From NCBI GenBank assembly GCA_030055515.1, contig JASFYI010000001.1, positions 496,001 through 560,000 of the forward strand: a stretch of DNA of 64,000 nucleotides, given 5' to 3'. Shown here piece after piece: positions 24,763-45,065 of this stretch. Position 1 is the first letter of the stretch. Each line of letters opens with the position of its first letter. The notes under the pieces are model-generated. The model was not told where the DNA came from, searched no databases, and was given only the letters and a program-made list of their open reading frames with translations. The DNA is from Methanolinea sp. (GTDB lineage Archaea > Halobacteriota > Methanomicrobia > Methanomicrobiales > Methanospirillaceae). The translations under genes were made by a program, and so were the position numbers.

Positions 24763-25122
24763 ATGGCTCTCGAAGAGATAAGGCGCCTCAAGAAGGCCGA
24801 GGAGATCGCACTCGGAATCATCGCGGAGGCCGAGAGGGAGGCCGAAACAATCATCGCGCGTGCTGCAGAAGAGGCCGGTGCACTCGTCGCACGGGCTGTC
24901 GAGGACGCGAGGAGAACGTGCGGGGAGGAGAGGGAGGCCGCCGTCGCACGCGCGAGGAGCGAGGGGGAAGCGCTCGTCCGGAAGGCGGCATCTGACGCGG
25001 AAGCCCTCGCCGCGGCTTCCCAAGAGAGAGCGGAGGCAGCCATCCGGTATGCCGTGCACGTCGTGACTGGAGAGCCGTATGTTGTACCCGGCCAGGATGT
25101 ACAGGGTGACGCTGGGGATTGA
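24763..25122 (+). CDS. ahaH: A-type ATP synthase 1, subunit H (peripheral stalk)
   Basis: A 119-aa protein dominated by an alanine/glutamate-rich right-handed coiled coil (KAEEIALGIIAEAEREAETIIARAAEEAG and onward), as in AhaH/AtpH, which pairs with subunit E to form the stator. It is the first gene of operon 1. Its 3' end overlaps subunit I by 44 bp. Confidence 0.8.
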   Translation: MALEEIRRLKKAEEIALGIIAEAEREAETIIARAAEEAGALVARAVEDARRTCGEEREAAVARARSEGEALVRKAASDAEALAAASQERAEAAIRYAVHVVTGEPYVVPGQDVQGDAGD

Positions 25123-27055
25123 CAACACGCGGAGGGGCAGGGGAATAGAGAAGCTCCACGAGATGGGCGTCCTCCACGTCGTTCCCCTCCGCGAGGCCAG
25201 CCCGCGGGTGAGGGAGGAACTCGCACCCGGCGAGCGTGACCTGCTCGCGGACCGGTGCGCAGAGTACCGCGCCCGCATCGAGCGGGTCCTCGAGGCCTTC
25301 CAGCACGTCTCCCCCGGGACCGTGAACCTCGTGAAAGACTTCTTTTTCCCAGAGGAGACCGCGGGCGTGACCGTGTCCGCCGGCACGCTCGGGGAGCTCT
25401 TCGAGGAGATCGATTCTGCCCTCGAAACAGCCGGGCGGGCAATCACGCTCTGGTCCGAGATCTCCGCGATTAGCGAGCGGCTGGGCGAACTCGAGGTCCA
25501 GAAGAAGGCCCTGCGGTACCTGGACCTCGTCCCCTTCGACCTCTCCGCACTGGGACAATCACGTTTCCTCTCCGTCCACGCTGCGCTCGTCGAGAAGGAG
25601 GCGGCGGGGGAGATCGCGAGGAGACTGGCGGAGAACCTCGGGGACGGTGTCTACATCGACAGGGCGGAGACCGCGGACACGGCCGTGCTCGTGGTCGCGT
25701 GCCACGCCGCGGACGGTGAGTCCGCAAGGAAGATCCTCAGGTCGCCCGGTGTCACATTGCCTAAAGTGCCGGTCATCCCCGGCCTTCCCGCCGACGTCCT
25801 GGGCGCGGTAGAGAGGGAGATCGGCGAGCTCGGCGGGAGGAAGAGGGCACTCGAGGCGGAACTCCTCTCCCTCCGGGAGGAGTACGAGAGGTACCTCCTC
25901 GCCCTCCACGAGGACCTCCTCATCAGGCGGGAAGAACTCGACCTCGTCACCCGGTGCGGGACGACGCGGGAAGTGACGATCATCCAGGGATTCGTCCCGG
26001 AACGCGCCCTCGGGGACGTCCGAGAGGGACTCGAGACCGCGACCGGCGGTCACCACTTCGTCAGGGCAGAGGAACCGGACCCCGGCGACCCGTCGGTCCC
26101 GGTCCGCTACGAGAACCCGCCGTTCATCGCCCCCTTCGAGTACATCACCACGATGTTCTCGCGGCCGCGGTACGACGAGGTCGATCCCACGCCGTTCATC
26201 GCCCCCATCTTCCTCGTCTTCTTCGGGCTGATGCTCGGCGACGCGGGCTACGGGATCGTCATCGCCCTCGCCGGCTACCTCGTCTTCCGCGGCGCAGGGA
26301 GGGTGAGTCCCACGATGCGCGACCTCGGCTACATCCTGTGCCTCAGCGGGATCTCGGCCATCGCGTTCGGGGCGGTACAGGGGGGATGGTTCGGCGACGT
26401 TCCCCAGAGATTCCTCGGGATCACTCCTCCCCTCGTGCTGATAGAACCGCTCAAGAATCCCATCGCTTTCTTCCAGCTCTCGCTCGTCCTCGGGATCGCG
26501 CACATCAACCTCGGGCTCGCGATCGCGCTCTACCAGAACCTGAAGAGGCATTCCTACAGGGAGGCCATCTTCGAGCAAGGCATATGGTTCCTCCTCCAGC
26601 CCTCGGCAGGCGTCCTCCTCACGGAGTTCTTCGGATGGGCACCGGTCCCGCGGTGGCTCCACTTCCTCTCGCTCGCGGGGGCAGCGATTGCGATCGCCCT
26701 CGTGTTCTACTCGCACGGGGCCATGGGATTCTTCTCCCTCACGGGTTTCCTCGGCGATTGGCTCTCCTACGTGAGGATACTCGCCCTCGCGCTCGCCACG
26801 GGGGGAATCGCGATGACCGTGAACATCCTCGCGCAGATCGTGAGCAGTCCCGGGCCGCTCTTCATCATCCCGGCAATCGTGGTCTTCCTCGGCGGGCAGG
26901 CATTCAACCTCGTCATCCAGACGCTCGGCGGTGTCATCCACGCGATACGACTCCAGTACATCGAGTTCTTCGGGAAGTTCTACCGGGGAGGGGGGACACC
27001 GTTCGTCCCGTTCAGCGTCCAGAGGGTTTACTCGAGGAGAGGTGAACGACAGTGA
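25079..27055 (+). CDS. ahaI: A-type ATP synthase 1, subunit I (a-type membrane stator)
   Basis: A 658-aa protein with a cytoplasmic helical N-terminal half (1-340) and eight or so membrane helices in the C-terminal half. The start of the membrane part reads RYDEVDPTPFIAPIFLVFFGLMLGDAGYG. The conserved ion-channel helix near residue 570 reads GDWLSYVRILALALATGG and contains the essential Arg. A final helix follows, then YIEFFGKFYRGGGTPFVPF. ATG 25079 has GGAG six bases upstream; ATG 25097 is an alternative. The last base overlaps the start of K. Confidence 0.93.
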   Translation: MLYPARMYRVTLGIDNTRRGRGIEKLHEMGVLHVVPLREASPRVREELAPGERDLLADRCAEYRARIERVLEAFQHVSPGTVNLVKDFFFPEETAGVTVSAGTLGELFEEIDSALETAGRAITLWSEISAISERLGELEVQKKALRYLDLVPFDLSALGQSRFLSVHAALVEKEAAGEIARRLAENLGDGVYIDRAETADTAVLVVACHAADGESARKILRSPGVTLPKVPVIPGLPADVLGAVEREIGELGGRKRALEAELLSLREEYERYLLALHEDLLIRREELDLVTRCGTTREVTIIQGFVPERALGDVREGLETATGGHHFVRAEEPDPGDPSVPVRYENPPFIAPFEYITTMFSRPRYDEVDPTPFIAPIFLVFFGLMLGDAGYGIVIALAGYLVFRGAGRVSPTMRDLGYILCLSGISAIAFGAVQGGWFGDVPQRFLGITPPLVLIEPLKNPIAFFQLSLVLGIAHINLGLAIALYQNLKRHSYREAIFEQGIWFLLQPSAGVLLTEFFGWAPVPRWLHFLSLAGAAIAIALVFYSHGAMGFFSLTGFLGDWLSYVRILALALATGGIAMTVNILAQIVSSPGPLFIIPAIVVFLGGQAFNLVIQTLGGVIHAIRLQYIEFFGKFYRGGGTPFVPFSVQRVYSRRGERQ

Positions 27056-28494
27056 CGATAGGACTGGGAACTGCACTCCTCGCGATCGGTGCCGGCATCG
27101 CCGCGGGTTTCCCCGCGATAGGTGCCGGGATAGGCGTGGGAATCACGGGCGCGGCATCGGCGGGCGTGACCGCCGAGCGGCCAGAGAAGTTCGGGGTCGC
27201 CCTCATCTACTCCGCGATCCCCCAGACACAGGCGATTTACGGCCTGCTCGTGGCGATCCTCATCCTGCTCACGGGCGGGTTCCTCGGGGGCCTCTCACAC
27301 GACGTCCCGGTCGGGATCGGCCTCTCGGCGGTCGGCGCGGGACTCGCAGTGGGGATCGCGGGCCTCTCGTCCATCGGGCAGGGGATCGCGGCGTCCTCTG
27401 CCGTCGCGATGACGAGCGAGCGGCCGGAGATGTTCGGCAAGGGCGTCGTCTTCTCCGTGATTTGCGAGACGCAGGCGATCTACGGGCTCCTCGTCGCCGT
27501 GCTCATCCTCGTCTTCTCGGGGCTTCTTTCCGGGAACTACGTCGCGACGGCAGCAAGTGGCCTCGCGGGGATCGGGTGCGGGCTCGCGGTGGGACTCTCC
27601 GGGATCTCCGCGGTCGGGCAGGGGATCGCCGCGTCGGCGGGCGTCGCCGCGACAGGGGAACACCCTGACCTCTTCGGGAAAGGGATTGTATTCGCCGCGA
27701 TATGCGAGACGCAGGCGATCTACGGGCTCCTCGTCGCGATCCTCATCATGTCCTTTTCGGGGATGTTCACCGGGAATCTCGTCGCGACGCTCGCGTCCGG
27801 GGCCGTCGCGATCGGGTGCGGGCTCGCGAGTGGCTTTGCGGGATTCTCGGCGATAGGGCAGGGGATCGCCGCGGCATCCGGCATCGGGGCCTCGGCCGAG
27901 AAACCCGGGCTCTTCGGGAAGGGCATCGTTTTTGCTGCCATCTGCGAGACGCAGGCGATCTACGGGCTCCTCGTCGCGGTCCTCCTGATGTCTTTCTGCG
28001 GCCTCATATCGGGTGACGTCTCGCTGACCCTCGCCGTCGGGTTCGCCGCGATAGGGGGAGGCCTCGCGGTGGGGCTCGCGGGTCTCTCGGCGATAGGGCA
28101 GGGGATCGCCGCGGCGTCCGGCATCGCCGCGACGAGCGAGAAGGAGGAGATGTTCGGCAAGGGCGTCGTCTTCTCCGCGGTGTGCGAGACGCAGGCAATC
28201 TACGGGCTCCTCGTCGCGATCCTCCTCATGGCATTCACGGGGATGATCACGCGCGACTTCGTGACCACCATCGCGGTCGGCATCGCGGCGATAGGCGCGG
28301 GGATCGCCGTCGGGCTCGGCGGGTTCTCGGCCATAGGGCAGGGCATCACGTGCGCGTCCGGGATCGCCGCGACCGCGCGGCGGCCCGAGGCGATGGGCAG
28401 GAGCCTCGTGTTCGCGGCGATGTCCGAGACATTCGCGATCTTCGGGCTCCTCGTCGCGATCCTCATCCTCTTCGGGCTGGGGATATTCCATGTG
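27052..28494 (+). repeat. Six in-frame tandem repeats of 240 bp inside subunit K
   Basis: The segment TACGGGCTCCTCGTCG recurs at 27481, 27721, 27961 and 28201, with TTCGGGCTCCTCGTCG at 28441, an exact 240-bp period. The first unit is offset by 3 bp and more divergent. Long near-identical nucleotide stretches (for example GAGACGCAGGCGATCTACGG) between units point to amplification or gene conversion. Confidence 0.9.
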
Positions 28495-28497
28495 TGA
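27052..28497 (+). CDS. ahaK: A-type ATP synthase 1, subunit K: six-hairpin proteolipid (rotor c subunit)
   Basis: A 481-aa, 12-helix proteolipid built of six tandem two-helix hairpins of 80 residues each, where most c subunits have one. Hairpins 2-6 carry a Gln in the first helix (GQGIAAS or GQGITCAS) and a membrane Glu in the second (CETQAIYG four times, SETFAIFG last). This is the Gln-Glu-Thr-(Tyr) pattern of Na+-binding rings. Hairpin 1 has neither: VGITG-AASAG lacks the Gln, and PQTQAIYG has Gln in place of Glu. One polypeptide would therefore supply five ion sites per six hairpins. The GTG at 27052 overlaps the stop of subunit I. Confidence 0.95.
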   Translation: MTIGLGTALLAIGAGIAAGFPAIGAGIGVGITGAASAGVTAERPEKFGVALIYSAIPQTQAIYGLLVAILILLTGGFLGGLSHDVPVGIGLSAVGAGLAVGIAGLSSIGQGIAASSAVAMTSERPEMFGKGVVFSVICETQAIYGLLVAVLILVFSGLLSGNYVATAASGLAGIGCGLAVGLSGISAVGQGIAASAGVAATGEHPDLFGKGIVFAAICETQAIYGLLVAILIMSFSGMFTGNLVATLASGAVAIGCGLASGFAGFSAIGQGIAAASGIGASAEKPGLFGKGIVFAAICETQAIYGLLVAVLLMSFCGLISGDVSLTLAVGFAAIGGGLAVGLAGLSAIGQGIAAASGIAATSEKEEMFGKGVVFSAVCETQAIYGLLVAILLMAFTGMITRDFVTTIAVGIAAIGAGIAVGLGGFSAIGQGITCASGIAATARRPEAMGRSLVFAAMSETFAIFGLLVAILILFGLGIFHV

Positions 28498-28524
28498 GGT
28501 GCTGGCCGTGGAGCGTGTCGGGAG

Positions 28525-29136
28525 ATGAGCGTCGAGCAGATCGAGCAGCGCATCCTCTCGGATGCGCGGGCGGAGGCCGAAAGGACGAAGGAGAGGGCGG
28601 GGATGGAGGCGGAACGGATCCTCGCGCGGGCCCGCGCGGAGGCAGAGCGGCAGGCGCGGGACATCCTCGCCTCGGGGAGGGAAGAGACCGCGAGGATGTG
28701 CGCGCAGCTCCTCTCCCAGTCGCGGATCGAGGCGAGGAGGATCCTCAGGTCTGCCCGGGAGAAGGCAATCGACGGTGCACTCGCGGGAGCGAGGGGCCGC
28801 CTCTCCCGCGTAAGGGAGAGTCCCGAGTACCCCCGCATATTCTCAAGGCTCGCCGCGGAGGGGATCGCTCTCCTCGGGCAGGGGGAAGCCGTCCTCGAGT
28901 TCCACCCTGCCGACAGGCCCCTCGCGGAATCGTTCGCGAAGGAAAATGCCGGCGGTCCCGTCCGGTGCAGGCTCTCCGACAGGCCGCTCGCGACCGCCGG
29001 GGGGGTCGTCGTGAGGAGTCCCGACGGCACCGTGAGCGTCAATAACACCGTCGAGGCCCGGTTCGAGCGGATGCGGGGCGAGATCGCGGCCGGGGTGGCG
29101 CGGATCCTCTTTGGGGATGGCGGGGTGAAGGCATGA
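28525..29136 (+). CDS. ahaE: A-type ATP synthase 1, subunit E (peripheral stalk)
   Basis: A 203-aa protein with an N-terminal Ala/Arg/Glu coiled coil (residues 1-85) and a C-terminal globular head with the conserved ATAGGVVVRSPDGTVSVNNTVEARFER, as in AhaE/NtpE. It forms the stalk with subunit H and contacts subunits B and C. GGGAG precedes the ATG, and its stop overlaps the next start (ATGA). Confidence 0.92.
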   Translation: MSVEQIEQRILSDARAEAERTKERAGMEAERILARARAEAERQARDILASGREETARMCAQLLSQSRIEARRILRSAREKAIDGALAGARGRLSRVRESPEYPRIFSRLAAEGIALLGQGEAVLEFHPADRPLAESFAKENAGGPVRCRLSDRPLATAGGVVVRSPDGTVSVNNTVEARFERMRGEIAAGVARILFGDGGVKA

Positions 29137-30332
29137 CGGGCGACGGGGTGGCAAGGCTCGTCGACGACTTTGCGGCAGGAGTCGGGGTGGACCCGGGGAT
29201 CCTCGCGGTCCTTGCCCTCGGACTCCTCGTCTTCCTCCTCGTCGCCGTCGTCACGTTCATCGGGTACTTCAGGGAACTGTTCACGATCGCCCGGTTCGCC
29301 TACCCCGTCGCCCGGGTGAAGGCGATAGGAAATCCGTTCGTCCGTCCCGACGTCCTCGCCCGGGTGCAGGAGGCGCGGAACACATTCGACGCGAGTGCAG
29401 CGGTCCGGGAGGCGGGCGCGGGGATAGCCATCCCGGACGATGCCACGCCCGAGGCCATCGACAGGATCCTCGACGAGTGGTACATCTCCGAGTTCGTCTC
29501 GCTCGCGGGCACGGTCCCGGAGAGCATAAAGCCGTTCTTCTCGGCGTACCTCGGGGTCCTCGAGACAGAACAGCTCGTCCGAGCGGCGAGGATGGTCCAT
29601 TCCCGCGCGGGGAAGGGAATCGACGCGTCGCGGCTCATCCCCGTCGGCTGCCTCACGCCCGACCGGGTGAGGAACCTCGACGGCATCTCCGAGATGCGCG
29701 AACTCGCGGCGAGACTCCGGGGCACTCCCCACGAACCTGTCATTTCGGCAGTCCTCCCCGCCTACGAGCAGGAGAGGTCCCTCGTGCGCGTCGAGAACGC
29801 CCTCTGGAAACACGCCCTGCAGGGCCTGAACCACTCGCGCGTGAACGTCGATCCCACCCACCTCCCCGCCGTCGCCGGGTTCCTCGGGGTATACACCGAC
29901 GTGGTCAACATCCTCACCCTCCTGCGCGCGCGGCAGCAGGCGCTCCCTGCGGACGTCGTCTCGGGAATGTTCGTTCCTGGCGGTGCCGTCTACGAGGAGT
30001 GGCGCCTCGTGCAGCTTTATGAGAACAGGGGGGCGAGGGAGATCGTGACCCTGATGGCCGGGACGGAGTACTACGATGTGCTCTCGCGCGCACTCCCCGA
30101 GGCGGGGGAACCGGACATCTCGAGGCTGGAGGTCGCCCTCGACAGGTTCCTGCTCGCGAAAGTCATCGCGCTCTCGCAGGTCCACCACTTAAAGGGCGGG
30201 CCCCTCATCATGTTCGCGGTCGCGCGGAAGTTCGAGGCGCGCAACCTCCGCCTCATATTCCACTCGCTCTCGGAGGGGGTTCCCGTCACCGAGATCGGGA
30301 AGTGGCTCGTTGCGGAGGGGGCATCGGCGTGA
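29133..30332 (+). CDS. ahaC: A-type ATP synthase 1, subunit C with an added N-terminal membrane helix
   Basis: A 399-aa protein. Residues 60-399 are the all-helical C (d-type) subunit that links the rotor ring to the central stalk. Residues 21-44 (ILAVLALGLLVFLLVAVVTF) form a transmembrane helix not seen in the second operon's C, which starts directly with the domain (DLGYINARVRGMH). The anchor is in frame, part of the ATGA-coupled start and followed by FRELFTIARFAYPVARVK. It may hold C to the membrane beside the large K ring. The rest, including the C-terminal YKV-type helix bundle, is typical. Confidence 0.85.
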   Translation: MTGDGVARLVDDFAAGVGVDPGILAVLALGLLVFLLVAVVTFIGYFRELFTIARFAYPVARVKAIGNPFVRPDVLARVQEARNTFDASAAVREAGAGIAIPDDATPEAIDRILDEWYISEFVSLAGTVPESIKPFFSAYLGVLETEQLVRAARMVHSRAGKGIDASRLIPVGCLTPDRVRNLDGISEMRELAARLRGTPHEPVISAVLPAYEQERSLVRVENALWKHALQGLNHSRVNVDPTHLPAVAGFLGVYTDVVNILTLLRARQQALPADVVSGMFVPGGAVYEEWRLVQLYENRGAREIVTLMAGTEYYDVLSRALPEAGEPDISRLEVALDRFLLAKVIALSQVHHLKGGPLIMFAVARKFEARNLRLIFHSLSEGVPVTEIGKWLVAEGASA

Positions 30333-30628
30333 GGATCGCGGTCGTCGGGAGCAGGAGAATGGTAAGGGGATTCGCGCTCGCCGGGGTGAAGGACCTCTAC
30401 ACCGCGGAGAAGGTGGAGGACGCGAGGGATGTCCTCCCGAGACTGCTGCGGGATCCCTCTATCGGGATCGTCATCGTCCCGGCGCGGTTCAGGCGCGATC
30501 TCTCGGCCCTCGTCAGGGCAGCGGAGGGAGCCCGCGACGGGTACCCCGTGGTCATCGCGCTCCCGGAGGGATCGGGAGAAGACGAGTCCCGCGGGGAGGA
30601 TTTCGAGAGGATTGCCGGACTGGAGTGA
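30329..30628 (+). CDS. ahaF: A-type ATP synthase 1, subunit F (central stalk)
   Basis: A 99-aa Rossmann-like protein that starts [21 protein letters not shown] and ends with a flexible acidic tail, as in AhaF/NtpG, which binds subunit D in the rotor. The GTG at 30329 overlaps the TGA of subunit C (GTGA). It ends 7 bp before the start of subunit A. Confidence 0.88.
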
Positions 30629-30635
30629 GACAGGG

Positions 30636-32411
30636 ATGGAGAGAGAGGTGGATCGGCCGGGCTCGATCGTCAGGGTCACGGGACCCGTTGTCGTCGCCGA
30701 GGGGATGAGGGGGGCGCGCATGTTCGAGATCGTCCGCGTGGGCGAGGCCGGCCTCATCGGCGAGATCATCGCGCTCGAGAACGACAGGGCAACGATACAG
30801 GTGTATGAGGAGACTTCTGGCACGGTGCCCGGCGAGCCCGTGAGGGGAACGGGGAGGTCGCTCTCCGTGGCGCTCGGGCCGGGCCTCCTCGGCACGATAT
30901 TCGACGGCATCCAGAGACCGCTCGCGAAGATGCGCGAGGCTACCGGCGATTTCATCGGGAGGGGGATCGACATCCCTGCCCTCGACACCCGCGAAAAGTG
31001 GGAGTTCGTCCCCCGCGCAAAACCGGGCGATTTTGTACAGGGTGGCGATATCCTCGGCGACGTGCAGGAGAGGCCTTCCGTTCCCCACCGCGTCATGGTC
31101 CCCCCCGGCGTGAGTGGCACCGTCACGTGGGTCGCTGAAGAGGGCAGGTACACCATCACGGAACCGGTGTGCACCCTCCGGTCCGGGGACGCCGGGAGAG
31201 AACTCCCGATGGTCCAGTACTGGCCCGTGAGGGCGGCGCGGCCCATCGCGCGGAAACTCGACCCGACAGATCCCCTCCTCACGGGGCAGAGGGTCATCGA
31301 CCTCCTCTTCCCAATCGCGATCGGGGGGACAGCCGCGATACCCGGGCCCTTCGGGTCGGGCAAGACCGTGGTCCAGCACCAGCTCGCGAAGTGGGCGAGT
31401 GCAGACATCGTCATCTTCGTCGGGTGCGGGGAGAGGGGGAACGAGATGGCCGACGTCCTCGCGGAGTTCCCGCACCTTGAGGACCCCCGGACGGGTCTCC
31501 CGCTCATCAACCGCATGGTCCTCATCGCGAACACGAGCAACATGCCGGTCGCCGCGAGGGAGGCGTCGGTTTACACGGGGATGACGATCGCGGAGTACTA
31601 CCGGGACATGGGGTACAAGGTCGCGCTCATGGCAGATTCCACGTCGCGGTGGGCCGAGGCGATGAGGGAGATATCCGGGAGGCTCGAGGAGATGCCGGGG
31701 GAAGAAGGGTACCCCGCGTACCTCGGGTCCCGGCTCGCGGACTTCTACGAGCGCGCGGGGAGGGTCAGGACGATCGGAACGGAGGAGAGGGAAGGGTCGG
31801 TATCTGTCATCGGCGCAGTGTCGCCGCCGGGGGGCGACTTCTCAGAGCCGGTGACCCAGAACACGCTGCGGATCGTGAAGGTATTCTGGGCACTCGACTC
31901 GGACCTCGCGTACCGCAGGCACTTCCCTGCCATCAACTGGCTCACGTCCTACTCGCTCTACACGCACGTCGTCAACGCGTGGTGGCACGCGAACGTCGGT
32001 CCCCGGTGGGAGGAGATGAAGGGCGAGATCATGGCGATCCTCCAGAAGGAGAGCGAACTCGAGGAGATGGTCAAGCTGGTCGGCCCCGAGGTCCTCCCCG
32101 AGGGCGATCGGCTCACTCTCCTCGAGGCCGAGGTGATCCGCGAGAGCATCCTCATGCAGTACGCGTTCCACCCCGAGGACACCTACACGTCCCCAAGGAA
32201 GCTCTACAGGATGGTGGAAACCGTCTTTGCCTTCTTTGACCTCGCGCGCCGCGCCGTCTCGTCCGGCGTCCCCGCGGAGGCAATCCGGTCCCTCCCCTCG
32301 AAGTCCCGGCTCGCCCGCATGGGAACGGTCCCGGAGAGGGACGCAGAAGAGGTCTTCTCCGACCTCGACCGCCAGATGAGGGAGGAATTCTCCGCCCTCG
32401 GGAGGACGTGA
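30636..32411 (+). CDS. ahaA: A-type ATP synthase 1, catalytic subunit A
   Basis: A 591-aa catalytic subunit with the Walker A loop [10 protein letters not shown], the non-homologous insert after [10 protein letters not shown], the Walker B region [17 protein letters not shown] with [16 protein letters not shown], and [17 protein letters not shown]. All catalytic residues seen in active A subunits are present, so this enzyme should make or hydrolyse ATP. No intein is present. ATG 30636 follows AGACAGGG. Confidence 0.95.
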
Positions 32412-32412
32412 G

Positions 32413-33822
32413 ATGCAGGCAGGAATGCAGAGGGGAGCACGCGAGTTCCGGTCCGTGACCGAGATCCACGGGCCCCTCATGGTCGTGGACGGCGTTTCTG
32501 GCGTCGCGTACGGCGAGGTCGTCGAGATTACCCTCTCCACGGGCGAAAAGAGGCTCGGGCAGGTCCTCGAGTCGCGGACATCGAGGGCGATCGTCCAGGT
32601 CTTCGGGACGACGCGCGACCTCGACACGAGCACGACGACGGCGCGGTTCACGGGGAGGACAATGCACATCCCGGTCACGGAGGACATGCTCGGGAGGATA
32701 TTCGACGGGATTGCCCGGCCCCTCGACGGGAGTGCACCCCCCGTGGGCGAGGAAGAAAGGGACATCCACGGCTCGCCCATCAACCCGGACGCGAGGGAGC
32801 ACCCGAGGGATTCCATCCAGACGGGAATCTCGGTCATCGACGGGATGAACACCCTCGTCCGCGGGCAGAAACTCCCCATATTCAGCGGTGCAGGGCTGCC
32901 GCACAACCTCATCGCGGCCCAGATCACCCGGCAGGCGAGGGTCAGGGGACAGGAAGAGCACTTCGCGGTAGTCTTCGCCGCGATGGGAATCACCCACGAG
33001 GAGGCTTCGTTCTTCGTCTCCGACTTCACCCGGACGGGTGCACTCGAGCGGGCAGTCATCTTCCTCAACCTCGCCGACGATCCCGCCATCGAGCGGATCA
33101 TCACGCCCCGGCTCGCACTCACGACAGCCGAGTTCCTCGCCTTCGAGAAGGGGATGCACGTCCTCGTGGTCCTCACGGACCTCACCAACTACTGCGAGGC
33201 ACTGAGGGAGATCTCGGCCGCGCGCGAGGAGGTCCCGGGGAGGAGGGGGTACCCGGGGTACATGTACACGGACCTCGCGAGCATATTCGAGAGGGCGGGC
33301 CGGATAAAGGGCCGGCCGGGCTCCATCACGCAGATACCCATCCTGACGATGCCCGACGACGACATCACGCACCCCGTGCCCGACCTCACGGGGTACATCA
33401 CGGAGGGGCAGATCGTCCTCTCGAGGGACCTGCACAGGAAGGGCATCTACCCCCCCATCAACCCGCTCCCCTGCCTCTCCCGCCTCATGCAGGGCGGGAT
33501 AGGGCCCGGGAGGACGAGGGAAGACCACGCCCAGGTCAACAACCAGCTCTACGCTGCGTACTCGCAGGGCATCAGGTTGAAGAGCCTCGTTGCGGTCGTG
33601 GGTGAAGAAGGGCTCTCGGAGATCGACCGTACCTACATCAGGTTCGCGGACCGGTTCGAGCGGGAATTCATCGCGCAGGGACCCGAGGAGATGCGCTCGT
33701 TCGAGGCGACACTCGACCGGGCATGGGACCTCCTCTCCCTCCTCCCCGAGGCAGAGCTCCGGAGGATCGACGTCTCGTTCATCAGGAAGTACCACCCGGC
33801 GCACAGGGGGAGAGGAGAGTGA
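32413..33822 (+). CDS. ahaB: A-type ATP synthase 1, regulatory subunit B
   Basis: A 469-aa non-catalytic partner of A in the A3B3 head. It has the B-type markers [20 protein letters not shown] (no Walker A), [40 protein letters not shown] and [20 protein letters not shown]. It starts two bases after the stop of A, with GGGAGGACG as ribosome-binding site; ATG 32428 is possible. Confidence 0.95.
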
Positions 33823-34457
33823 GCGGCCGGGGGAGGAGCGGGGTCCGGCCGACGAGGATCGAGCTCCTGAAGCTGAAGAAGCAGGAACTCCTCGCGCGGA
33901 GGGGGCACGACCTCCTCCAGGAGAAACTCGACGCGATGGTGGTCGCGTTCTACGAGCACAGGGAGGCTTACCTCGCCCAGAGGCGGCGGGCCATCGAGGC
34001 GTACCGCTCCGCGCTCTCCGCGCTCGCGCTCGCCGAGATGATTGCGGGGACCGACACCGTGGATTCCATCGCGTTCTCGTCTCCCGCCCTCCCCGACATT
34101 CCCCTCGGCACGCGCCTCGTGATGGGGGTCCGGGTGCCGGCCCTGCCGCCGGGACCCCTCCCCGTCCACGAGAGGGGCTATGCCATCCTCGGCACACCCT
34201 CTGCCCTCGATACCGCGTCGGCAAAGTGGGAGGAGGCCACGCGCGAGATGATCGTGCTCGCGGAAAAGGCCGGGACACTGGAGAGACTGGCGCGCGAGAT
34301 ACAGAAGACGCGCCGGCGGGTGAACGCCCTCGAGAAGATCCTCATCCCGCGCCTCCAGTCGACGCGGAAATACATCGAGATGCACCTTGAAGAGAGGGAG
34401 AGGGAGGACCAGTTCCGAAGGAAGCGGATCAAGCACCTGAAGGGGGAGGCCGCGTGA
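33819..34457 (+). CDS. ahaD: A-type ATP synthase 1, subunit D (rotor shaft)
   Basis: A 212-aa protein with two long antiparallel helices: [28 protein letters not shown] at the N-terminus and [41 protein letters not shown] near the end. These form the coiled shaft that turns inside A3B3. The GTG at 33819 overlaps the TGA of B, and its own TGA overlaps the GTG of the next gene. Confidence 0.93.
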
Positions 34458-35828: not shown

Positions 35829-36155
35829 ATGGAAAAGGAATCCTCCCTTCTTGAAATCGTGAGGAGAAAGGAGCTCGAGCTTAAGGCCCTGACAGAGAAG
35901 GCCGAGAAAGAGGCAGAGGAGAAGGTCGCGAGGGCCCGCGAGAGAGCGGATGCCATACTCCAGGGCGCGCGGGAGGAGGCAGAAAGGGCGTCAGCGCGGT
36001 TCATCGAGGAGCAGCAGGAGGCACTCGAGCGCGAGATCCGGGAGATAGAGGAGAGATCGCTCTCCGAGCGGAACCAGGTCGTGGCGAAGGCAACCGCGAG
36101 GATCGAGGAGGCGGCAACGCTCGTCCTCGGCCACGTTGCACCCAAGGGTCCCTGA
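35829..36155 (+). CDS. ahaH: A-type ATP synthase 2, subunit H (peripheral stalk)
   Basis: A 108-aa protein made of a coiled coil rich in Glu, Lys and Ala (ELKALTEKAEKEAEEKVARARERADAIL), typical of AhaH. GAGGAGAGACC precedes the ATG. The stop codon overlaps the ATG of subunit I (TGATG). Confidence 0.85.
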   Translation: MEKESSLLEIVRRKELELKALTEKAEKEAEEKVARARERADAILQGAREEAERASARFIEEQQEALEREIREIEERSLSERNQVVAKATARIEEAATLVLGHVAPKGP

Positions 36156-38068
36156 TGCTCCAGAAGATGAAGAACATACTGGTAGTCGGCCCGAAAAAGG
36201 ACTACCAGCGCATCGTCGACGTCCTCTACCAGGAGGGGACGGTCCACCTCCAGGACATCCCCGTTCCCTCCGACGACCCCGTGTTCTCCCCCATGGAGAC
36301 GGGAAAGACCGACGAGATATCGTCTCTCCTCCTGAAGATCCACGGGATCGCGCGCATTCTCCCGGGGAAGCCCAACGAGTCGGAAGTCGAGAGAAAGACC
36401 GCGGAGTTGCGGAAGAAAACGACGGACGAGCTCCTCTCCGAAGCGAGGGAAATGGTCCACGCGCTCGAGTCGCGGGTCCGCGAACTCGCGACGCGCAAGG
36501 GGGACCTCGAGCTTGCGAGGACGACGCTCGAGAGGTACGCGAAGGTCATGCAGAAAATACAGCCCCTCGAGAGCAGGCTGCCCATCCTCGAGGGATTCGA
36601 GGTGAGCGTCCTCCTCATCCAGAGGGAATACAGCGACGTCCTCGACCTCATCAAGCCGCAGCTCAAGGCCATCACGAACAACCAGTTCGAGTTCATCGCT
36701 GCAGACCTCGACGAGACGACGACCGCGGCGATCACGGTCTTCAACAAGAAGTACTCCCAGGAGGTCCACTCGTTCCTCTTCTCCCAGAACGTGAACGAAC
36801 TGCGGGTCCCCGAGGAATACGCAAACATGCACCTACAGGACGCGCTCTCCCTCATCGACAGGAGGAAAGGGGATATCGCGAGGGAGATGGCGGAGATCGA
36901 CAGGGAACTCGGGGAGCTCTCGGCCAAGTGGCAGACGGACCTTTCCGTCATGGCACGCCTCCTCGAGGACCGCCTCGAAGAACTCCGCTCGCTCGACAAG
37001 TTCGGGCAGTCCGAGCACACCATCATGATAAAGGGCTGGATCCCGAAGAAATTCTTCAAGAAGACGCAGGAAGCCCTCAGGGCAAACTTCGGGGACAGGG
37101 TGGTGATGACGGAGATCCCCGTCCCCCCCGAGGAGATGGAACACGCGCCCACGTTCTACGACAACCCGTGGATAGTCAAGCCGTTCGAGTTCTTCATGAA
37201 GCTCGTCTCGCCGCCGAAGTACATCGAGATAGACCCTAGCCCCCTCCTCGCCTTTTTCTTCCCCATCTTCTTCGGGATCATCGTCGGCGACGTGGGTTAC
37301 GGCCTATGCATCCTCGGGTTTGGCCTCGCGATGAAGTGGAAATTCCCGAAAGTCGAGTGGCTGCAGCAGCTCATGAACATCATGGTGATATCTTCCTTCC
37401 CGACGATATTCTTCGGGTTCCTCTTCGGCGAGTTCTTCGGCGATTTCGGCGAACACGTGGGCCTCCTCCACCCTGTCCACTTCCTCGGCATCACGTGGAA
37501 CAGGGTCGAGGCGATGATCCCCCTGCTCGTGCTCGCCATCGCCATAGGGGTCATCCACATCTTCGTCGGGCTCTCCCTCGGCATCCTGAATGCCTACGCG
37601 AGGAAGCAGAAGAAGCACCTCTGCGAGAAGGCGGGGATGATGGGGATAGTCCTCGGGATCATCCTCCTCCTCCTCGCGTTCACGGGAGTCCTCCCGTCTT
37701 TCACGATGATCGTCTCGGCCGTGATCATCGTCGCGTTCCTCCCGCTCCTCGTGTACGGTGGCGGGACGATGGGCGTCATCGAGGTGATGAGCACCATTGG
37801 AAACATCCTCTCCTACGCGAGGATAATGGCGATCGGGATGGCATCGGTCATCCTCGCGATCGTCGCGAACGAGCTTGGGGGCGCGATAGGGGTCCTCGTC
37901 GCGGGGATCGTCATCGCGGCACTCCTCCACGCTCTCAACATCATCCTCGCGATGTTCAGCCCGTCCCTGCACTCTGTCCGTCTCCACATCGTCGAGTTCT
38001 ACTCGAAGTTCTACGAGGGGGGCGGGATCGAGTACAGGCCTTTTGGAAGGGAGAAGAAGACCGACTGA
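36155..38068 (+). CDS. ahaI: A-type ATP synthase 2, subunit I (a-type membrane stator)
   Basis: A 637-aa protein with a helical cytoplasmic half and a C-terminal membrane half that begins KYIEIDPSPLLAFFFPIFFGIIVGDVGYG. The channel helix is MSTIGNILSYARIMAIGMAS with the conserved Arg, and the end is HIVEFYSKFYEGGGIEYRPF. It is clearly diverged from operon 1 subunit I, so the duplication is not recent. Confidence 0.94.
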   Translation: MLQKMKNILVVGPKKDYQRIVDVLYQEGTVHLQDIPVPSDDPVFSPMETGKTDEISSLLLKIHGIARILPGKPNESEVERKTAELRKKTTDELLSEAREMVHALESRVRELATRKGDLELARTTLERYAKVMQKIQPLESRLPILEGFEVSVLLIQREYSDVLDLIKPQLKAITNNQFEFIAADLDETTTAAITVFNKKYSQEVHSFLFSQNVNELRVPEEYANMHLQDALSLIDRRKGDIAREMAEIDRELGELSAKWQTDLSVMARLLEDRLEELRSLDKFGQSEHTIMIKGWIPKKFFKKTQEALRANFGDRVVMTEIPVPPEEMEHAPTFYDNPWIVKPFEFFMKLVSPPKYIEIDPSPLLAFFFPIFFGIIVGDVGYGLCILGFGLAMKWKFPKVEWLQQLMNIMVISSFPTIFFGFLFGEFFGDFGEHVGLLHPVHFLGITWNRVEAMIPLLVLAIAIGVIHIFVGLSLGILNAYARKQKKHLCEKAGMMGIVLGIILLLLAFTGVLPSFTMIVSAVIIVAFLPLLVYGGGTMGVIEVMSTIGNILSYARIMAIGMASVILAIVANELGGAIGVLVAGIVIAALLHALNIILAMFSPSLHSVRLHIVEFYSKFYEGGGIEYRPFGREKKTD

Positions 38069-38177
38069 GCGAGTGCACTAATTCCCGTTAAAATACCGTA
38101 TTTTTTTAGAGCATGTTGTTTAGGTATTTAATTTATATATTATCAAGATTATGTTACAGGTGTAGGAGGAATGAATC
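38069..38177 (+). promoter_or_regulatory. Internal regulatory gap before subunit K2: T-run, TATA box and strong ribosome-binding site
   Basis: This is the only large gap in operon 2. It contains a T7 run at 38101-38107 (possible terminator or attenuator), a strong TATA element ATTTATATATTATC at 38131-38144 and AGGAGGAATG just before the K start. The layout suggests a separate, strong transcript for the proteolipid, which is needed in many copies when each has only one hairpin. Confidence 0.6.
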
Positions 38178-38396
38178 ATGGCTGGATGGGAAATTCCACT
38201 CGGTGCGGCAATTGCGTTCGCGGCAGGCGCGATCGGAACCGCGTGGGCACAGTCCCGAATAGGGTCCGCGGGAGCGGGGACGATCGCGGAGAGGCCGGAG
38301 ACGTCCGGATCCATCATCGTCCTCGAAGCGATTCCTGAAACCCTGGTCATCCTCGGTTTCGTGGTCGCATCCATGATCATCATCATGGTGGAGTGA
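38178..38396 (+). CDS. ahaK: A-type ATP synthase 2, subunit K: single-hairpin proteolipid
   Basis: A 72-aa, two-helix c subunit. Helix 1 is GAAIAFAAGAIGTAWAQSRI and helix 2 carries the ion-binding Glu in IVLEAIPETLVILGFVVAS. Aligned on the loop ERPE, the Gln of WAQSR falls on Gln32 of the Na+-binding Ilyobacter c subunit and E-T on its Glu65-Ser66; the Tyr70 position is Leu. Na+ or mixed Na+/H+ use is therefore plausible. It has its own promoter and ribosome-binding site. Confidence 0.93.
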   Translation: MAGWEIPLGAAIAFAAGAIGTAWAQSRIGSAGAGTIAERPETSGSIIVLEAIPETLVILGFVVASMIIIMVE

Positions 38397-38493
38397 GGGG
38401 GGGGACACCGGAATACCCGTGCGCAGGACGCGCGTGGCCGATGTCCCCGCACGGGATGCAAGGGGGCTGATACCGGAAGGGGAGAGACCGGGA

Positions 38494-39078
38494 ATGACGT
38501 ACGAGGATCTCATAAAGTCGATGGAGGCGGCGGCTGAAGAGAAGAAGGAGGAGATTCTCAGGAACGCGGACCGGCAGGCGGAGGCGATCGTCCGCGAGGC
38601 GGAGGAGAGGGCTGGCGCGATAAAGGAGGAGTACATGGCCCGTGCCCGGGCGATCGTCGCCGACAGGAGGAACCGCCTGCTCTACAAGACACGGCAGGAC
38701 GCCCGCGCAGCAGACATCGCGGAGAGGGAGAAAATGCTGCATGCAGTCTACGCGCGCGTGGCCTCGCAGATGGGAAATTTCCGGGAAAGGGAAGATTACA
38801 GGGCGCTCTTCTCCTGGCTCCTCTCCGAGTCCCTCGCGGAGATGGGGGAAAAGGATGTCCAGGTCCACGTCGATCCGAGGGACGAGGCGCTGTGCAGGGA
38901 GATCGTCTCCCGGTTGGACGGGAAGTTCGCGGTCGTCCCGGACATCACAACGGCAGGCGGTGTCATCGTCTCTACCCCCGATAACCAGGTTCTCGTCCAC
39001 AACACCCTCGAGTCGAGGCTCGAGAGGGCGAAGGTTCTCTTGAGGAAAGACATCTGCCACATTCTCTTCGGGGAATGA
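38494..39078 (+). CDS. ahaE: A-type ATP synthase 2, subunit E (peripheral stalk)
   Basis: A 194-aa protein with an N-terminal coiled coil (YEDLIKSMEAAAEEKKEEILR) and the C-terminal head motif ITTAGGVIVSTPDNQVLVHN-TLESRLER. The ATG at 38494 follows GGAAGGGGAGAG; the frame from 38419 adds an unrelated basic leader. The stop overlaps the start of C (ATGA). Confidence 0.92.
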   Translation: MTYEDLIKSMEAAAEEKKEEILRNADRQAEAIVREAEERAGAIKEEYMARARAIVADRRNRLLYKTRQDARAADIAEREKMLHAVYARVASQMGNFREREDYRALFSWLLSESLAEMGEKDVQVHVDPRDEALCREIVSRLDGKFAVVPDITTAGGVIVSTPDNQVLVHNTLESRLERAKVLLRKDICHILFGE

Positions 39079-40130
39079 GCATGGATCTTGGGTACATCAA
39101 CGCGCGGGTCAGGGGCATGCACAGTCGGCTGCTCGGGCAGAAGGTATTCGATGCACTGATGGTCCAGCAGGATATCCCCTCCCTCGTGACAGAGCTGGAG
39201 AAGACCCCGTACAGGGAGGAGATACAGGAAGCGTGCGTCCTCTACCCGGGGATAAAGGGGATCGAGGCTGCACTCCGGATGAACCTCGTGCACACGTGCC
39301 AAAAGATCCTCTCCCTCGTCGAGGGGAGCGACGCGGAACCCCTCGTGCGGATCATCCTCTCCCGGTGGGACATCCACAACGTGAAGACGATCCTCCGGGG
39401 AAAGCACATCCACGTCTCCTCAGAGGAGATACAGGAGTGCCTGATTCCCGCCGGGTCCCTCGGGGAGCCACTCCTCGTGGAACTCATCAAGCAGCCGGAC
39501 GTGAGGGGGGTCGTCGACCTCCTCGCCACGTGGGAATCCCCGTACGCGCGGCCTCTCACGCAGCACATGGACGAGTATGCCAAGGGAAAGGAGATCTCGG
39601 TACTCGAGTACGCCCTCGACCGGTTCCACTACGAGAACGCGTTCTCCCTCCTCAAGGAAAAAAGCGAAGACCACGAGGTCATGCGGAGGCTCCTTCGGCA
39701 GGAGATCGATTCCCTCAACCTGAAGAACGCGCTCCGGATGAACCGCGACAGGGTGGAGCCGGAGACGGCGATTGCGTACTTCCTGCCCGGCGGGGAGCAC
39801 GTCGGGCAAGAACGGTTCCTCGCCCTCGTGGCCGCGGGCAACATCGACACGATCGTCCAGAACCTCGAGGGAACACCCTACGCGTTCCTCGTCCCGCTCA
39901 TCCCCGAGGCCATGCGGACCGGGACCTTTTCCCTCCTCGAGAAGGAACTCGACAAGTTCCTGACGAGGAAAGGCACGGGGGTTTACCGGAGCGACCCGCT
40001 GGGCGGGGCTGTCGTCATCGGGTACCTCTGGGCCAAGCAGAACGAGATCATCAACCTCCGCATCATCGCGCGGTGCAAGAATGCGCGCGTCTCCGATGCG
40101 GAACTGGAGAAGGAGCTGCGGTATGTATAA
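39075..40130 (+). CDS. ahaC: A-type ATP synthase 2, subunit C (soluble rotor link)
   Basis: A 351-aa, all-helical subunit that begins LGYINARVRGMHSRLLG and ends NLRIIARCKNARVSDAELEK, the usual AhaC termini. It has no membrane helix, in contrast to the operon 1 copy. Its end overlaps the start of F. Confidence 0.93.
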   Translation: MSMDLGYINARVRGMHSRLLGQKVFDALMVQQDIPSLVTELEKTPYREEIQEACVLYPGIKGIEAALRMNLVHTCQKILSLVEGSDAEPLVRIILSRWDIHNVKTILRGKHIHVSSEEIQECLIPAGSLGEPLLVELIKQPDVRGVVDLLATWESPYARPLTQHMDEYAKGKEISVLEYALDRFHYENAFSLLKEKSEDHEVMRRLLRQEIDSLNLKNALRMNRDRVEPETAIAYFLPGGEHVGQERFLALVAAGNIDTIVQNLEGTPYAFLVPLIPEAMRTGTFSLLEKELDKFLTRKGTGVYRSDPLGGAVVIGYLWAKQNEIINLRIIARCKNARVSDAELEKELRYV

Positions 40131-40443
40131 GTTCATGGTCGTCACCGACCCGGACACCGCTGCCGGTTTCCGGCTCGCGGGTGCCGAGGTGATCGAGGCG
40201 GCCGGTCCCGCGGAGGCGAGGAAGATCATCCCGCCCCTCCTCCACCGTGACGACACGGGGATAATCGCGGTGAACGAGGAGTTCATCCAGGCCCTCGATG
40301 AGAAACTCCTCAACAGGATAGAGAAGACATACCGCCCGATCATCATCCCGATTCCACGGAGGGCGCGGGCAGGGGGCGGGCCGGGGTACCTCGAGAACCT
40401 CCTCCGGAGGGCGATCGGCTACAATATCGTGGTGAGGCGGTAG
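40123..40443 (+). CDS. ahaF: A-type ATP synthase 2, subunit F (central stalk)
   Basis: A 106-aa protein starting [21 protein letters not shown] and ending with [12 protein letters not shown], typical of AhaF. The ATG at 40123 lies within the last codons of C. One base separates it from subunit A. Confidence 0.9.
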
Positions 40444-40444
40444 C

Positions 40445-42184
40445 ATGATAGAGGGAACTATCTCGCGAATTTCCGGTCCGGTGGTGATCGCCGAGGGGAT
40501 GCGGGGGTCCAAGATGTACGACGTCGTGCACGTCGGGACCCTCGCCCTCCCCGGCGAGATCATCCGGCTGGAGGGGGACCAGGCCGTGATCCAGGTGTAC
40601 GAGGACACGACGGGTCTCTCGATCGGTGAACCGGTGAAGAATACCGAGCAACCGCTCTCCGTGGAACTGGGACCGGGACTCATCTCGTCGATATTCGACG
40701 GTGTCCAGCGTCCCCTCCCGGAACTCGTGAAGAAGAGCGGGCCATTCATATCGAGGGGGATCTCCGCCCCGGGACTCTCGCGCGAGGCGGAGTGGGAGTT
40801 CGAACCGGCGGTCGAGGAGGGCACGCGCGTGAGCGCGGGGACCATCCTCGGTTCCGTGAAGGAGTACCACTTCACCCACTACATCCTCGTCCCGCCCGGG
40901 ATCGAGGGGAAGGTGGAGAAGATCAGGAGAGGCCGTTTCAGGGTCACCGACCCGGTCTGCGAGCTCGACTCCGGGACGACCCTCACGATGATGCAGAAGT
41001 GGCCCGTCAGGAAGGGCAGACCCTACGTCCGGAAACTCGATCCCTCGGTCCCCCTCATCACCGGGCAGAGGATATTCGACTGCCTCTTCCCGCTCACGAA
41101 GGGGGGGACTGCCATGATCCCCGGCGGTTTCGGGACGGGAAAGACGGTCTCCGAGCAGACACTCGCGAAGTGGTCGGATGCCCACGTGATCATCTACATA
41201 GGGTGCGGGGAGAGGGGCAACGAGATGACCGATGTCCTCTCCGAGTTCCCCGAGCTCGTCGACCCGCGCACGAAACTCCCCCTCATCCAGAGGACGATCC
41301 TGATCGCGAACACCTCCAACATGCCGGTTGCAGCACGTGAGGCATCCATCTACACGGGGATCACCATGGCAGAGTACTACAGGGACATGGGGTACGACGT
41401 CGCCCTGATGGCCGACTCGACGTCGCGGTGGGGCGAGGCCTTGAGGGAAGTATCGGGCCGCCTCGAGGAGATGCCCGGCGAGGAGGGGTACCCCGCGTAC
41501 CTCGCGACGAGGCTCGCGGCATTCTACGAGCGGGCGGGCAGGGTCATCTGCCTCGGGCCGGACGGGAGGACGGGGTCCGTCACGATCGTGGGGGCGGTCT
41601 CCCCGCCCGGCGGCGATTTCTCCGAGCCCATCACGCAGAACACGCTCCGCATCGCGGGCACCTTCTGGGCGCTCGACACGAGCCTCGCCTACAGGCGCCA
41701 CTTCCCCTCCGTGAACTGGATCAAGAGCTACTCCCTCTACCTCGACAGCGTCGAGAAGTGGTACACCGAGCGGATGGAGGGCAACTGGAGGGCACTGCGC
41801 GACCAGACGATGTACCTCCTCCAGAAGGAAGTGGAACTCCAGGAGATCGTCCAGCTCGTTGGCCCCGACGCGCTCCCCGAGAGCGAGAAGGCCATCCTCG
41901 AGGTGACGCGGATGATCCGCGAGGATTTCCTCCAGCAGAGCGCTTACAGCGACACGGACTCGTACTGCCCCCTCGAGAAGCAGTTCTGGATGCTCTCGAC
42001 GATCATCGCCTACTACGAGGCATCGAGGGACGCGCTGAACAGGGGAGTCTCCCTGCGGCAGATCTCCTCGCTCCCCCTCCGGGCAGAGATCGCGAGGATG
42101 AAAGAGGTGAAAGATGTCGGCCAGATCAAGGACCTCGCCGCGAGGGTGAGGATGCAGATCGACGCGCTGGAGGTGGAACACTAA
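40445..42184 (+). CDS. ahaA: A-type ATP synthase 2, catalytic subunit A
   Basis: A 579-aa catalytic subunit with the P-loop GGFGTGKTV (operon 1 has GPFGSGKTV), [29 protein letters not shown] and [17 protein letters not shown]. The catalytic residues are complete. It is adjacent to B with no spacer. Confidence 0.95.
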
Positions 42185-43582
42185 ATGGCACCCGCGTCCC
42201 TCGTCGACCGCGAGTTCCGGACGGTCAGCTACGTCTCGGGGCCCCTCATCTTCGTCGAGAGGCCAAAGGGCGTCTCCTTCGGGGAGACAGCGAAGATCAC
42301 TCTCCCGGACGGGGAAGTGCGGAACGGCCAGGTCCTCGACGTCTCGAGGGACCTCGCCGTGGTCCAGATATACGAGGGGACGAGTGGCGTGGACAACAAG
42401 AGGACGTCGGTCAGGTTCACCGGCCAGTCTCCCTGCATCGACGTCTCCATCGACATGCTCGGCCGCGTCTTCTCGGGCGTGGGCAAGCCGCGGGACGGGA
42501 GGCCGGAGATCATCCCGGAGGATACCGTGGACATCTCGGGGATGCCCATCAATCCGTACGCGAGGGACAAGCCCTCAGACTTCATCCAGACGGGGATGTC
42601 GGCGATCGACGGCCTGAATACCCTCGTCCGGGGACAGAAACTCCCCATCTTCTCGGGCTCGGGACTCCCCGCGAACAAGCTCGCTGCCCAGATCGCGCGG
42701 CAGGCCCGGGTCCTCGGCAAGGAAGAGTCCTTCGCCGTGGTCTTCGTGGCGATGGGCATCACGCACAAGGAAGCCGCGTACTTCATGAACGAGTTCGAGA
42801 GGACCGGTGCCCTTGAGCGCGTCGTCTTCTTCCAGAACCTCGCCGACGACCCGACGATCGAGCGGATCGCGACGCCGCGGTGTGCCCTCTCCGTCGCCGA
42901 GTTCCTCGCGTACACCCACGACCTCCACGTCCTCGTCATCCTGACAGACATGACGAACTACTGCGAGGCGCTGCGCGAGATCTCGACCGCGAGGGAGGAG
43001 GTCCCCGGGAGGAGGGGGTACCCCGGCTACATGTACACCGACCTCGCGTCTATCTACGAGCGCGCGGGGCGGATCAAGGGGGCGAAGGGTTCGATCACGC
43101 AGATTCCCATCCTCACGATGCCGGACGACGACATCACCCACCCCGTCCCGGACCTCACGGGGTACATCACGGAAGGGCAGATCGTCCTCTCCCGCGACCT
43201 CTACAGGAGGGGGGCCGACCCGCCGATCGATGTCCTGCCGTGCCTCTCGCGCCTCATGAACCTCGGCATCGGGCCGGGGAAGACCCGGGAGGACCACAGG
43301 AACGTTGCCGACCAGCTCTACGCCTCCTATGCTTACGGCAGGGACCTCCGGCGCCTCGTCGCGATCGTCGGGGAGGAGGCACTCACCGAGCTCGACAAGG
43401 TCTACCTCTCGTTCGCGGACGACTTCGAGAAGAAATTCGTGACGCAGGGTGACGCAAACAGGACCATCACCGAGACCCTCGAGATAGGGTGGGACCTCCT
43501 CGCGAAGCTCCCCGAGGACGAGCTCAAGCGCATCAAGGTCGATTACATAAAGAAGTACCACCCGAGGTACCGCGCGGGGTGA
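42185..43582 (+). CDS. ahaB: A-type ATP synthase 2, regulatory subunit B
   Basis: A 465-aa protein with [54 protein letters not shown] and [19 protein letters not shown]. It starts directly after the TAA of A; GGAGGTGG lies nine bases upstream inside A. Confidence 0.95.
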
Positions 43583-43588
43583 ACGGGA

Positions 43589-44242
43589 ATGGAGCAGGTC
43601 AATCCCACCCGGATGGAGCTCATCAGGAAGAGGGCCCAGATCAGGCTCGCGGAGCAGGGGAGGGACCTCCTGCGCGAGAAGATGGACGCGCTCATCCAGG
43701 AGTTCTTCAAGATAATGGGGTCGGTCTCCCGTTCGCGGGAGGAGCTCGAGGCGGTCGCGGAGAGCGCGTACATGTCCCTCGTGATAGCCCAGGCCGTGGA
43801 CGATCCCGTCACCCTCCGGTCCGTCTCCTTCGCGACGCGGAGGCAGATCTCGCTCGACATCGGGGGCAAGAACATCATGGGCGTCCCCGTCCCCGTCATC
43901 GAGAAGAAGAGGTTCTCGCTCCCCTCGCTCGAGAGGGGCTACAGCATCCTCGGCGTGAGCGGGAGGATAGACGAGACCGCGGAGCGGTTCGAGTCGGAGA
44001 TAGACCTGATCATCGGCCTCGCGGAGACCGAGACCGCGCTCCGGCGGCTCGGCCACGAGATCCAGATGAACAGGCGGAGGGTCAACGCGCTCGAGCAGGT
44101 CCTGATCCCCGAGCTGAAGAGGCAGGCCAAGTTCATCAAGATCACCATCGAGGAGAGGGAACGCGAGGATCTCTTCCGCCTGAAGAAAGTGAAGAAGATA
44201 CTCAACCGGAAGAAGAAGATGAAGGGGAGACCCCAATCCTGA
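43589..44242 (+). CDS. ahaD: A-type ATP synthase 2, subunit D (rotor shaft)
   Basis: A 217-aa protein with the paired long helices of AhaD: NPTRMELIRKRAQIRLAEQGRDLLREK, and [30 protein letters not shown], followed by a Lys-rich tail. It is the last gene of operon 2; no 54-aa membrane protein follows. Confidence 0.94.
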   Translation: MEQVNPTRMELIRKRAQIRLAEQGRDLLREKMDALIQEFFKIMGSVSRSREELEAVAESAYMSLVIAQAVDDPVTLRSVSFATRRQISLDIGGKNIMGVPVPVIEKKRFSLPSLERGYSILGVSGRIDETAERFESEIDLIIGLAETETALRRLGHEIQMNRRRVNALEQVLIPELKRQAKFIKITIEEREREDLFRLKKVKKILNRKKKMKGRPQS

Positions 44243-44872: not shown

Positions 44873-45065
44873 GTGCCCCCACCTCCCCGTTCGCAATTCC
44901 GGGGTAACCGGAAGGGAAATAGACGTCGTGGGGCATAATCCTTTGCCTTGCCCGGGTGGCGGAAAACCTGCCCGATCGGAAAAAAGGCACGATTACGCGG
45001 TTTGATCAAAATCAGAATGATTAATAGTGAAAAAAACAGAACTTCTCCAGTCCGAGGGTGTATGC
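44873..45065 (+). promoter_or_regulatory. Divergent spacer with the probable promoter of the ech operon
   Basis: These 193 bp separate the small minus-strand gene from echA. The right half turns AT-rich (TGATCAAAATCAGAATGATTAATAG at 45003-45027), with GATTAATAG as TATA candidate about 40 bp before the echA ATG and GAGGGTG as ribosome-binding site. Confidence 0.4.

Follow-up and report, generated by a model that had tools for sequence, protein, structure and literature searches.

A six-hairpin A-type ATPase rotor subunit from Methanolinea and a half-site pattern shared by multi-hairpin archaeal K chains

Multi-hairpin K subunits of A-type ATPases (A-ATPases) have been described in Methanocaldococcus jannaschii, with three hairpins, and in Methanopyrus kandleri, with 13 hairpins (PMC2359735). 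In the two-hairpin NtpK of Enterococcus hirae, the Na+ site is formed by Leu61, Thr64 and Gln65, with Tyr68 beneath, together with Gln110 and Glu139 (Mulkidjanian et al. 2008, PMC2359735). In the hybrid c rings of Acetobacterium woodii and Clostridium aceticum, subunit c1 carries one site in two hairpins (PMC7911925). Multi-hairpin K subunits, site sharing in two-hairpin chains and a Na+-A-ATPase in Methanomicrobiales are already known. Neither a six-hairpin chain nor a general half-site rule of n-1 sites was found in the open-licence literature, supplements excluded. Herein, a gene for subunit K (proteolipid) with six fused two-helix hairpins is described from Methanolinea sp. It lies in contig 1 of assembly GCA_030055515.1, within a stretch of 64,000 nucleotides that was analyzed as a whole and is called the window. 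The source genome has a size of 1.76 Mb and is 99.1% complete.

The K gene is located at 27052..28497 on the + strand and encodes 481 amino acids. Six stretches of ATP synthase subunit C (PF00137) were identified in the protein, with a total of 329 bits, against a gathering cut-off of 24, and an E value of 2.4e-100. These values exclude a six-hairpin match by chance. A hairpin profile run on the same protein found exactly six hairpins, as the original prediction from the DNA letters had counted. The AlphaFold2 model, built with 19 related sequences, is all-helical, with a mean predicted local distance difference test score of 90.7 and a predicted template modelling (TM) score of 0.90.

Six positions were read in each hairpin, namely 32, 63, 65, 66, 67 and 70 in Ilyobacter numbering, in which 67 is the extra Gln of E. 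hirae. The ligand strings of hairpins 1 to 6 are VIQTQY, QIETQY, QIETQY, QIETQY, QVETQY and QMETFF. In hairpin 1 (27061..27291, +), the half that would accept the ion is lost, with Val29 for Gln32 and Gln58 for Glu65, and the donor half is intact, with Thr59, Gln60 and Tyr63. Both halves are intact in hairpin 2 (27307..27534, +; Gln110, Glu139, Thr140, Gln141, Tyr144), hairpin 3 (27547..27774, +; Gln190, Glu219, Thr220, Gln221, Tyr224), hairpin 4 (27787..28014, +; Gln270, Glu299, Thr300, Gln301, Tyr304) and hairpin 5 (28027..28251, +; Gln350, Glu379, Thr380, Gln381, Tyr384). In hairpin 6 (28267..28491, +), the acceptor half is kept (Gln430, Glu459) and the donor half is lost, with Thr460 retained, Phe461 in place of Gln and Phe464 in place of Tyr. 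The Na+-type set of Gln32, Glu65 and Ser/Thr66 is present in hairpins 2-6, and hairpin 1 has neither the Gln nor the Glu. At the junction between hairpin 6 and hairpin 1 of the next chain, the acceptor half is gone and the donor half is mostly gone.

These residues agree with the original prediction, which had placed Gln at 32 and Glu-Thr at 65-66 in hairpins 2-6 and Val and Gln in hairpin 1. They also support its count of five Na+-type sites per six hairpins, since by their ligands all five within-chain interfaces appear complete. Its description of hairpin 1 as dead was right for the missing Gln and Glu. However, it overlooked that hairpin 1 keeps Thr59-Gln60 and Tyr63, which would still serve hairpin 2, and that the Gln and Tyr of hairpins 1-5 are replaced by Phe461 and Phe464 in hairpin 6. 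Hairpins formerly read as dead would thus be one half of a neighbour's site.

The assignment of the two halves comes from NtpK. It is the best sequence match of K in the PDB (E 5.6e-22; 2.7e-26 in a second search) and the best fold match (PDB 2BL2; TM 0.88 of NtpK, 1.5 A over 150 columns). In the alignment, the Leu61/Thr64/Gln65 set of NtpK falls on hairpin 1, and its Gln110 and Glu139 fall on Gln110 and Glu139 of hairpin 2. Because the two ligand sets align to hairpins 1 and 2, hairpin n is taken to donate and hairpin n+1 to accept. The ends of both proteins are alike. NtpK has VLGTQY in its first, donor-only hairpin and QMETYL in its last, acceptor-only hairpin, and the window K has V.QTQY and Q.ETFF. 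The difference is in the number, as NtpK has two hairpins with one site per chain (1/2) and the window K has six hairpins with five sites (5/6). With six hairpins it is not a two-hairpin V-type c subunit, though it would work in an NtpK-like manner. In a hairpin tree with the ligand columns masked, the first hairpin of NtpK still stands among archaeal first hairpins (a set of 7, 99/92). The grouping of the last hairpin of NtpK with archaeal last hairpins fails after the same masking.

To place the pattern in a wider family, K chains were gathered by searching 61 genomes of the order with PF00137 and by a named-genome scan. More were obtained by a PQTQ pattern search of two phyla and one nanoarchaeal group, and by further PF00137 searches of the phyla of G410 (Thermoplasmata) and G415 (a Hydrothermarchaeota metagenome-assembled genome, MAG). 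The set contains 109 distinct complete chains, of which 23 have two hairpins, 13 three, 23 four, 46 six, 3 twelve and 1 thirteen. The K subunits of M. jannaschii, M. kandleri and Methanothermobacter were taken from the paper cited above and stand outside this set. Six-hairpin K recurs in Methanomicrobiales, in several Thermoplasmata lineages and in archaeon UBA543. Its orthologues occur in the isolates Methanocalculus taiwanensis and Methanogenium marinum and in many MAGs, so the six-hairpin form is no assembly artefact.

The 109 chains have 502 neighbour interfaces, junctions included. Both halves are intact at 387 and both are lost at 115, and mixed interfaces number 0. When donor states were shuffled within chains in 2000 trials, a mean of 166 mixed interfaces resulted, with a minimum of 130. 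The reverse pairing, from hairpin n to n-1, was ruled out by 184 mismatches among 476. Thr, Gln and Tyr of hairpin 1 are kept in every complete chain of this type. Of the 115 lost pairs, six lie within a chain, and these come from two lineages. Four DHVE2-type six-hairpin chains have lost the donor of hairpin 3 (QIETPT) and the acceptor Gln of hairpin 4 (LMETQY). Similarly, two Thermoplasmata 12-hairpin chains have lost both halves between hairpins 6 and 7. A Thermococci MAG, with its gene broken across contigs, is likely a third case. The internal paired losses are the strongest single observations for the half-site rule. No exception was found in the PF00137 scans, which are free of the bias of the PQTQ pattern. 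The half-site pattern is not an oddity of the window chain but the rule of a large family with 2, 3, 4, 6, 12 and 13 hairpins, conserved across its members, and as read from the ligands it gives n hairpins n-1 predicted sites, with the vacancy at the chain junction. M. kandleri K is outside this rule, with the complete set reported in all 13 hairpins (PMC2359735), and the window K with its deficient hairpin 1 is not of that all-live type. A site-less position amid site-bearing hairpins is a likeness to the A. woodii and C. aceticum rings, for which a reduced Na+/ATP ratio for low-energy life has been discussed (PMC7911925). Those rings differ in being F-type with mixed subunits, and the site-bearing hairpin of c1 is the first.

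The following explanation is favoured, at a probability of roughly 80% for the reading as a whole. The gene would encode the K/c rotor subunit of an A-type ATP synthase that translocates Na+, and one chain, with its six hairpins in succession, would span an arc of the ring. Each Na+ site would lie between two neighbouring hairpins, with Gln and the essential Glu coming from hairpin n+1, and with Thr, Gln and a backbone carbonyl, underlain by Tyr, coming from the outer helix of hairpin n. The five within-chain interfaces would then be complete Na+ sites. At the sixth interface, where the last hairpin meets the first hairpin of the next chain, both halves are lost and no ion would be bound. The Glu position at this junction is filled by Gln58, which is isosteric with a protonated Glu. 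Two chains would probably close a ring of 12 hairpins, with ten unevenly spaced sites and about 3.3 Na+ per ATP. We infer the site geometry and the Na+ specificity from the solved NtpK structure and from sequence rules. The two-chain ring, the direction of the enzyme (synthesis or pumping) and its energetic role are proposed with less certainty. The ion/ATP ratio sets how little energy suffices for an organism. The half-site rule suggests a simple way of reading the number of ion sites off a sequence, and it predicts uneven site spacing with a gap at each chain junction. The natural variants with 2 to 13 hairpins are test material for the effects of site number and spacing on ATP synthesis.

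Nothing in the sequence fixes the number of chains per ring, so the half-site pattern alone leaves the ion/ATP ratio unfixed. The earlier claim that a 5:6 pattern fixes this ratio therefore does not hold, as the chains per ring are needed too. The half-sites and Na+ could both be right in a ring of at least three chains, with 18 or 24 hairpins, 15 or 20 sites and a ratio of at least 5. Such a ring has perhaps an outside chance, since the two-hairpin K rings of E. hirae do have 20 hairpins (50 chains in 5 PDB entries). Three chains of 12 hairpins in Thermoplasmata MAGs (L052, 1159-4545; L055, 5217-8576; L067, 8129-11698) point the other way. They occur among six- and four-hairpin relatives. Two of them are 6+6 fusions with a site-less internal junction, and the third, with only one hairpin of the first type, has 11 predicted sites. 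In addition, PDB sequence matches with 12 single-hairpin K copies per entry comprise 132 chains in 11 entries, which we take to be Thermus; the V/A rings of Thermus have 12 hairpins. The ring of 12 hairpins is favoured because of these natural 12-hairpin chains and the 12 copies in the Thermus entries, and 12 is also divisible by most chain lengths. A two-chain ring with ten sites, about 3.3 Na+ per ATP and two wide gaps is plausible on these grounds, and the earlier suggestion of 12 hairpins from two chains with 10 sites has gained this indirect backing, short of proof. Several points weigh against the favoured explanation or reduce its force. PDB searches by sequence and by fold found no chain structure with more than two hairpins. 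Chains of 13 hairpins exist in two nanoarchaeal genomes, one with 12 predicted sites (L077, 9350-12721) and one pieced together from two contigs of genome G420 (5+8 hairpins, C8 and C10). The Thermococci MAG chain, split over two overlapping contigs, may have eight hairpins. The 109 chains are related, so the 387, 115 and 0 interfaces are not 502 independent events. The loss of the end pair was probably inherited, the clear internal co-losses are only two, and much of the sampling was made via a pattern containing PQTQ.

The other explanations concern the pattern and the ion. Simple decay after duplication, with no structural logic, might account for hairpin 1 and for the end of hairpin 6, as duplicated c subunits often drop ligands in one copy (Mulkidjanian 2008, PMC2359735). 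This is very improbable when hairpin 1 has kept its donor residues throughout the complete chains and losses are always paired between donor (n) and acceptor (n+1), within chains too. Post-translational cleavage into single hairpins, by which the fusion would only equalise hairpin amounts, is compatible with the sequence and seems just as improbable. The linkers between hairpins are short, a fixed order in which the first and last hairpins are special is sensible only if it persists in the ring, and the pattern is kept in the two 6+6 fusions. A ring that physiologically moves H+ (or H3O+) is somewhat less improbable, though still unlikely. Ligand motifs predict specificity without proving it, and the enzymes may share out the roles, given that the genome also encodes two A-ATPases whose K is a single hairpin. 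On the other side, the full Na+ motif (Gln32, Glu65, Thr66, the extra Gln and Tyr) is found at five interfaces, from which Na+ is predicted as the ion of the K ring. ProAD predicts one Na+-A-ATPase and two H+-A-ATPases in eight Methanomicrobiales genera (PMC11738941).

The prediction in ProAD matches the window genome, which belongs to the same order and has three A-ATPases, and the six-hairpin enzyme is probably the Na+-A-ATPase that ProAD assigns to the order. The main text of ProAD gives neither hairpin counts for these ATPases nor a half-site rule (PMC11738941). The second complete operon (35829-44242, +) is directly downstream of the six-hairpin operon. Its K (38178-38396) has 72 amino acids in a single hairpin of the QIETLL type. 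The third complete operon is on contig 4 (locus L009, 4086-12384, -), and its 90-residue single-hairpin K carries Glu in place of Gln32 in addition to the usual Glu. Such a pairing of two carboxylates may be compared with the title of PMC3692424. In genome G035, the six-hairpin K likewise has a second K about 11 kb away. Methanospirillum hungatei JF1 also has three A-ATPase clusters, Aha1-Aha3, of which two are neighbours by locus tag (PMC4704411). The Methanospirillum K chains in the survey differ in having three hairpins, and PMC4704411 leaves the ion open.

Hairpin trees were used to understand the origin of the long chains. One branch sets the first hairpins apart from the rest, with support of 100/100, or 88/74 with the ligand columns masked. 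Middle hairpins cluster mostly by lineage and not by position. This clustering, together with a hairpin 4 that does not belong to the first type, led to the rejection of a doubled three-hairpin chain as the source of six hairpins. A better explanation of the six-hairpin chain is that it grew in its middle while the ends stayed conserved, which probably took place in several lineages. A chain tree from first and last hairpins (152 columns, weak support) has at least 13 changes of hairpin number. Tentatively, an NtpK-like two-hairpin chain might have been lengthened by insertions of complete hairpins between half-site ends that stayed conserved, with chains of 2, 3, 4, 6 and 12 hairpins closing 12-hairpin rings that carry 6, 8, 9, 10 and 11 Na+ per turn, although we consider this doubtful. 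If true, chain length would be a gear dial, and archaea would set the Na+/ATP ratio by the number of fused hairpins. Chain lengths that are strictly divisors of 12 were not upheld, given 13 in the two nanoarchaeal genomes and maybe 8 in the Thermococci MAG.

K is the third gene of a complete nine-gene A-ATPase operon (24763-34457) in the order H-like, I, K, E, C, F, A, B, D, all on the + strand. Its start codon is GTG, and it overlaps the end of the subunit I gene. The nearest named relatives are Methanolinea MAGs, with an identity of 93-94% in the K protein in the named-genome scan. The first gene (24763..25122) encodes a short coiled-coil-like protein in the position of subunit H. It was assigned by position and sequence only, and a Pfam scan of it gave no match. 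It is followed by subunit I, the stator a subunit (25079..27055, PF01496). Downstream of K are subunit E (28525..29136, PF01991), subunit C, the rotor-to-stalk adaptor (29133..30332, PF01992), and subunit F (30302..30628, PF01990). The catalytic subunit A (30570..32411, start approximate; PF00006, PF16886, PF22919) is followed by subunit B (32413..33822; PF00006, PF22919) and the central stalk subunit D (33723..34457, PF01813). The Pfam match of subunit D begins at residue 47, so its true start is probably downstream of 33723. A sodium:solute symporter gene (PF00474, 22963-24603, -) adjoins the operon and points away from it. Energy-converting hydrogenase-like genes (Proton_antipo_M, NADHdh, Complex1_49kDa/NiFe hydrogenase) are present at 45027-49753 (+), shortly after the second operon.

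Further K genes were observed among the relatives. In the assembly of Methanogenium cariaci, the gene for six-hairpin K is split over two frames (L076, 8849-10333 and 10337-11566), perhaps due to a sequencing error. Twelve Thermoplasmata K genes, L052, L055 and L067 among them, have about 110-210 extra residues ahead of the first hairpin in an open frame. In the phylum of G410, eleven K chains of two hairpins carry Met instead of Glu in hairpin 1 (e.g. ILMTQY, QMETMF) and obey the half-site rule. In the phylum of G415, most single-hairpin K (L218-L232, L236-L239) have E-G for E-T and no Gln32 (ILEGIY), which is H+-like, and three others (L212, L213, L217) are single-hairpin K with the full Na+ set.

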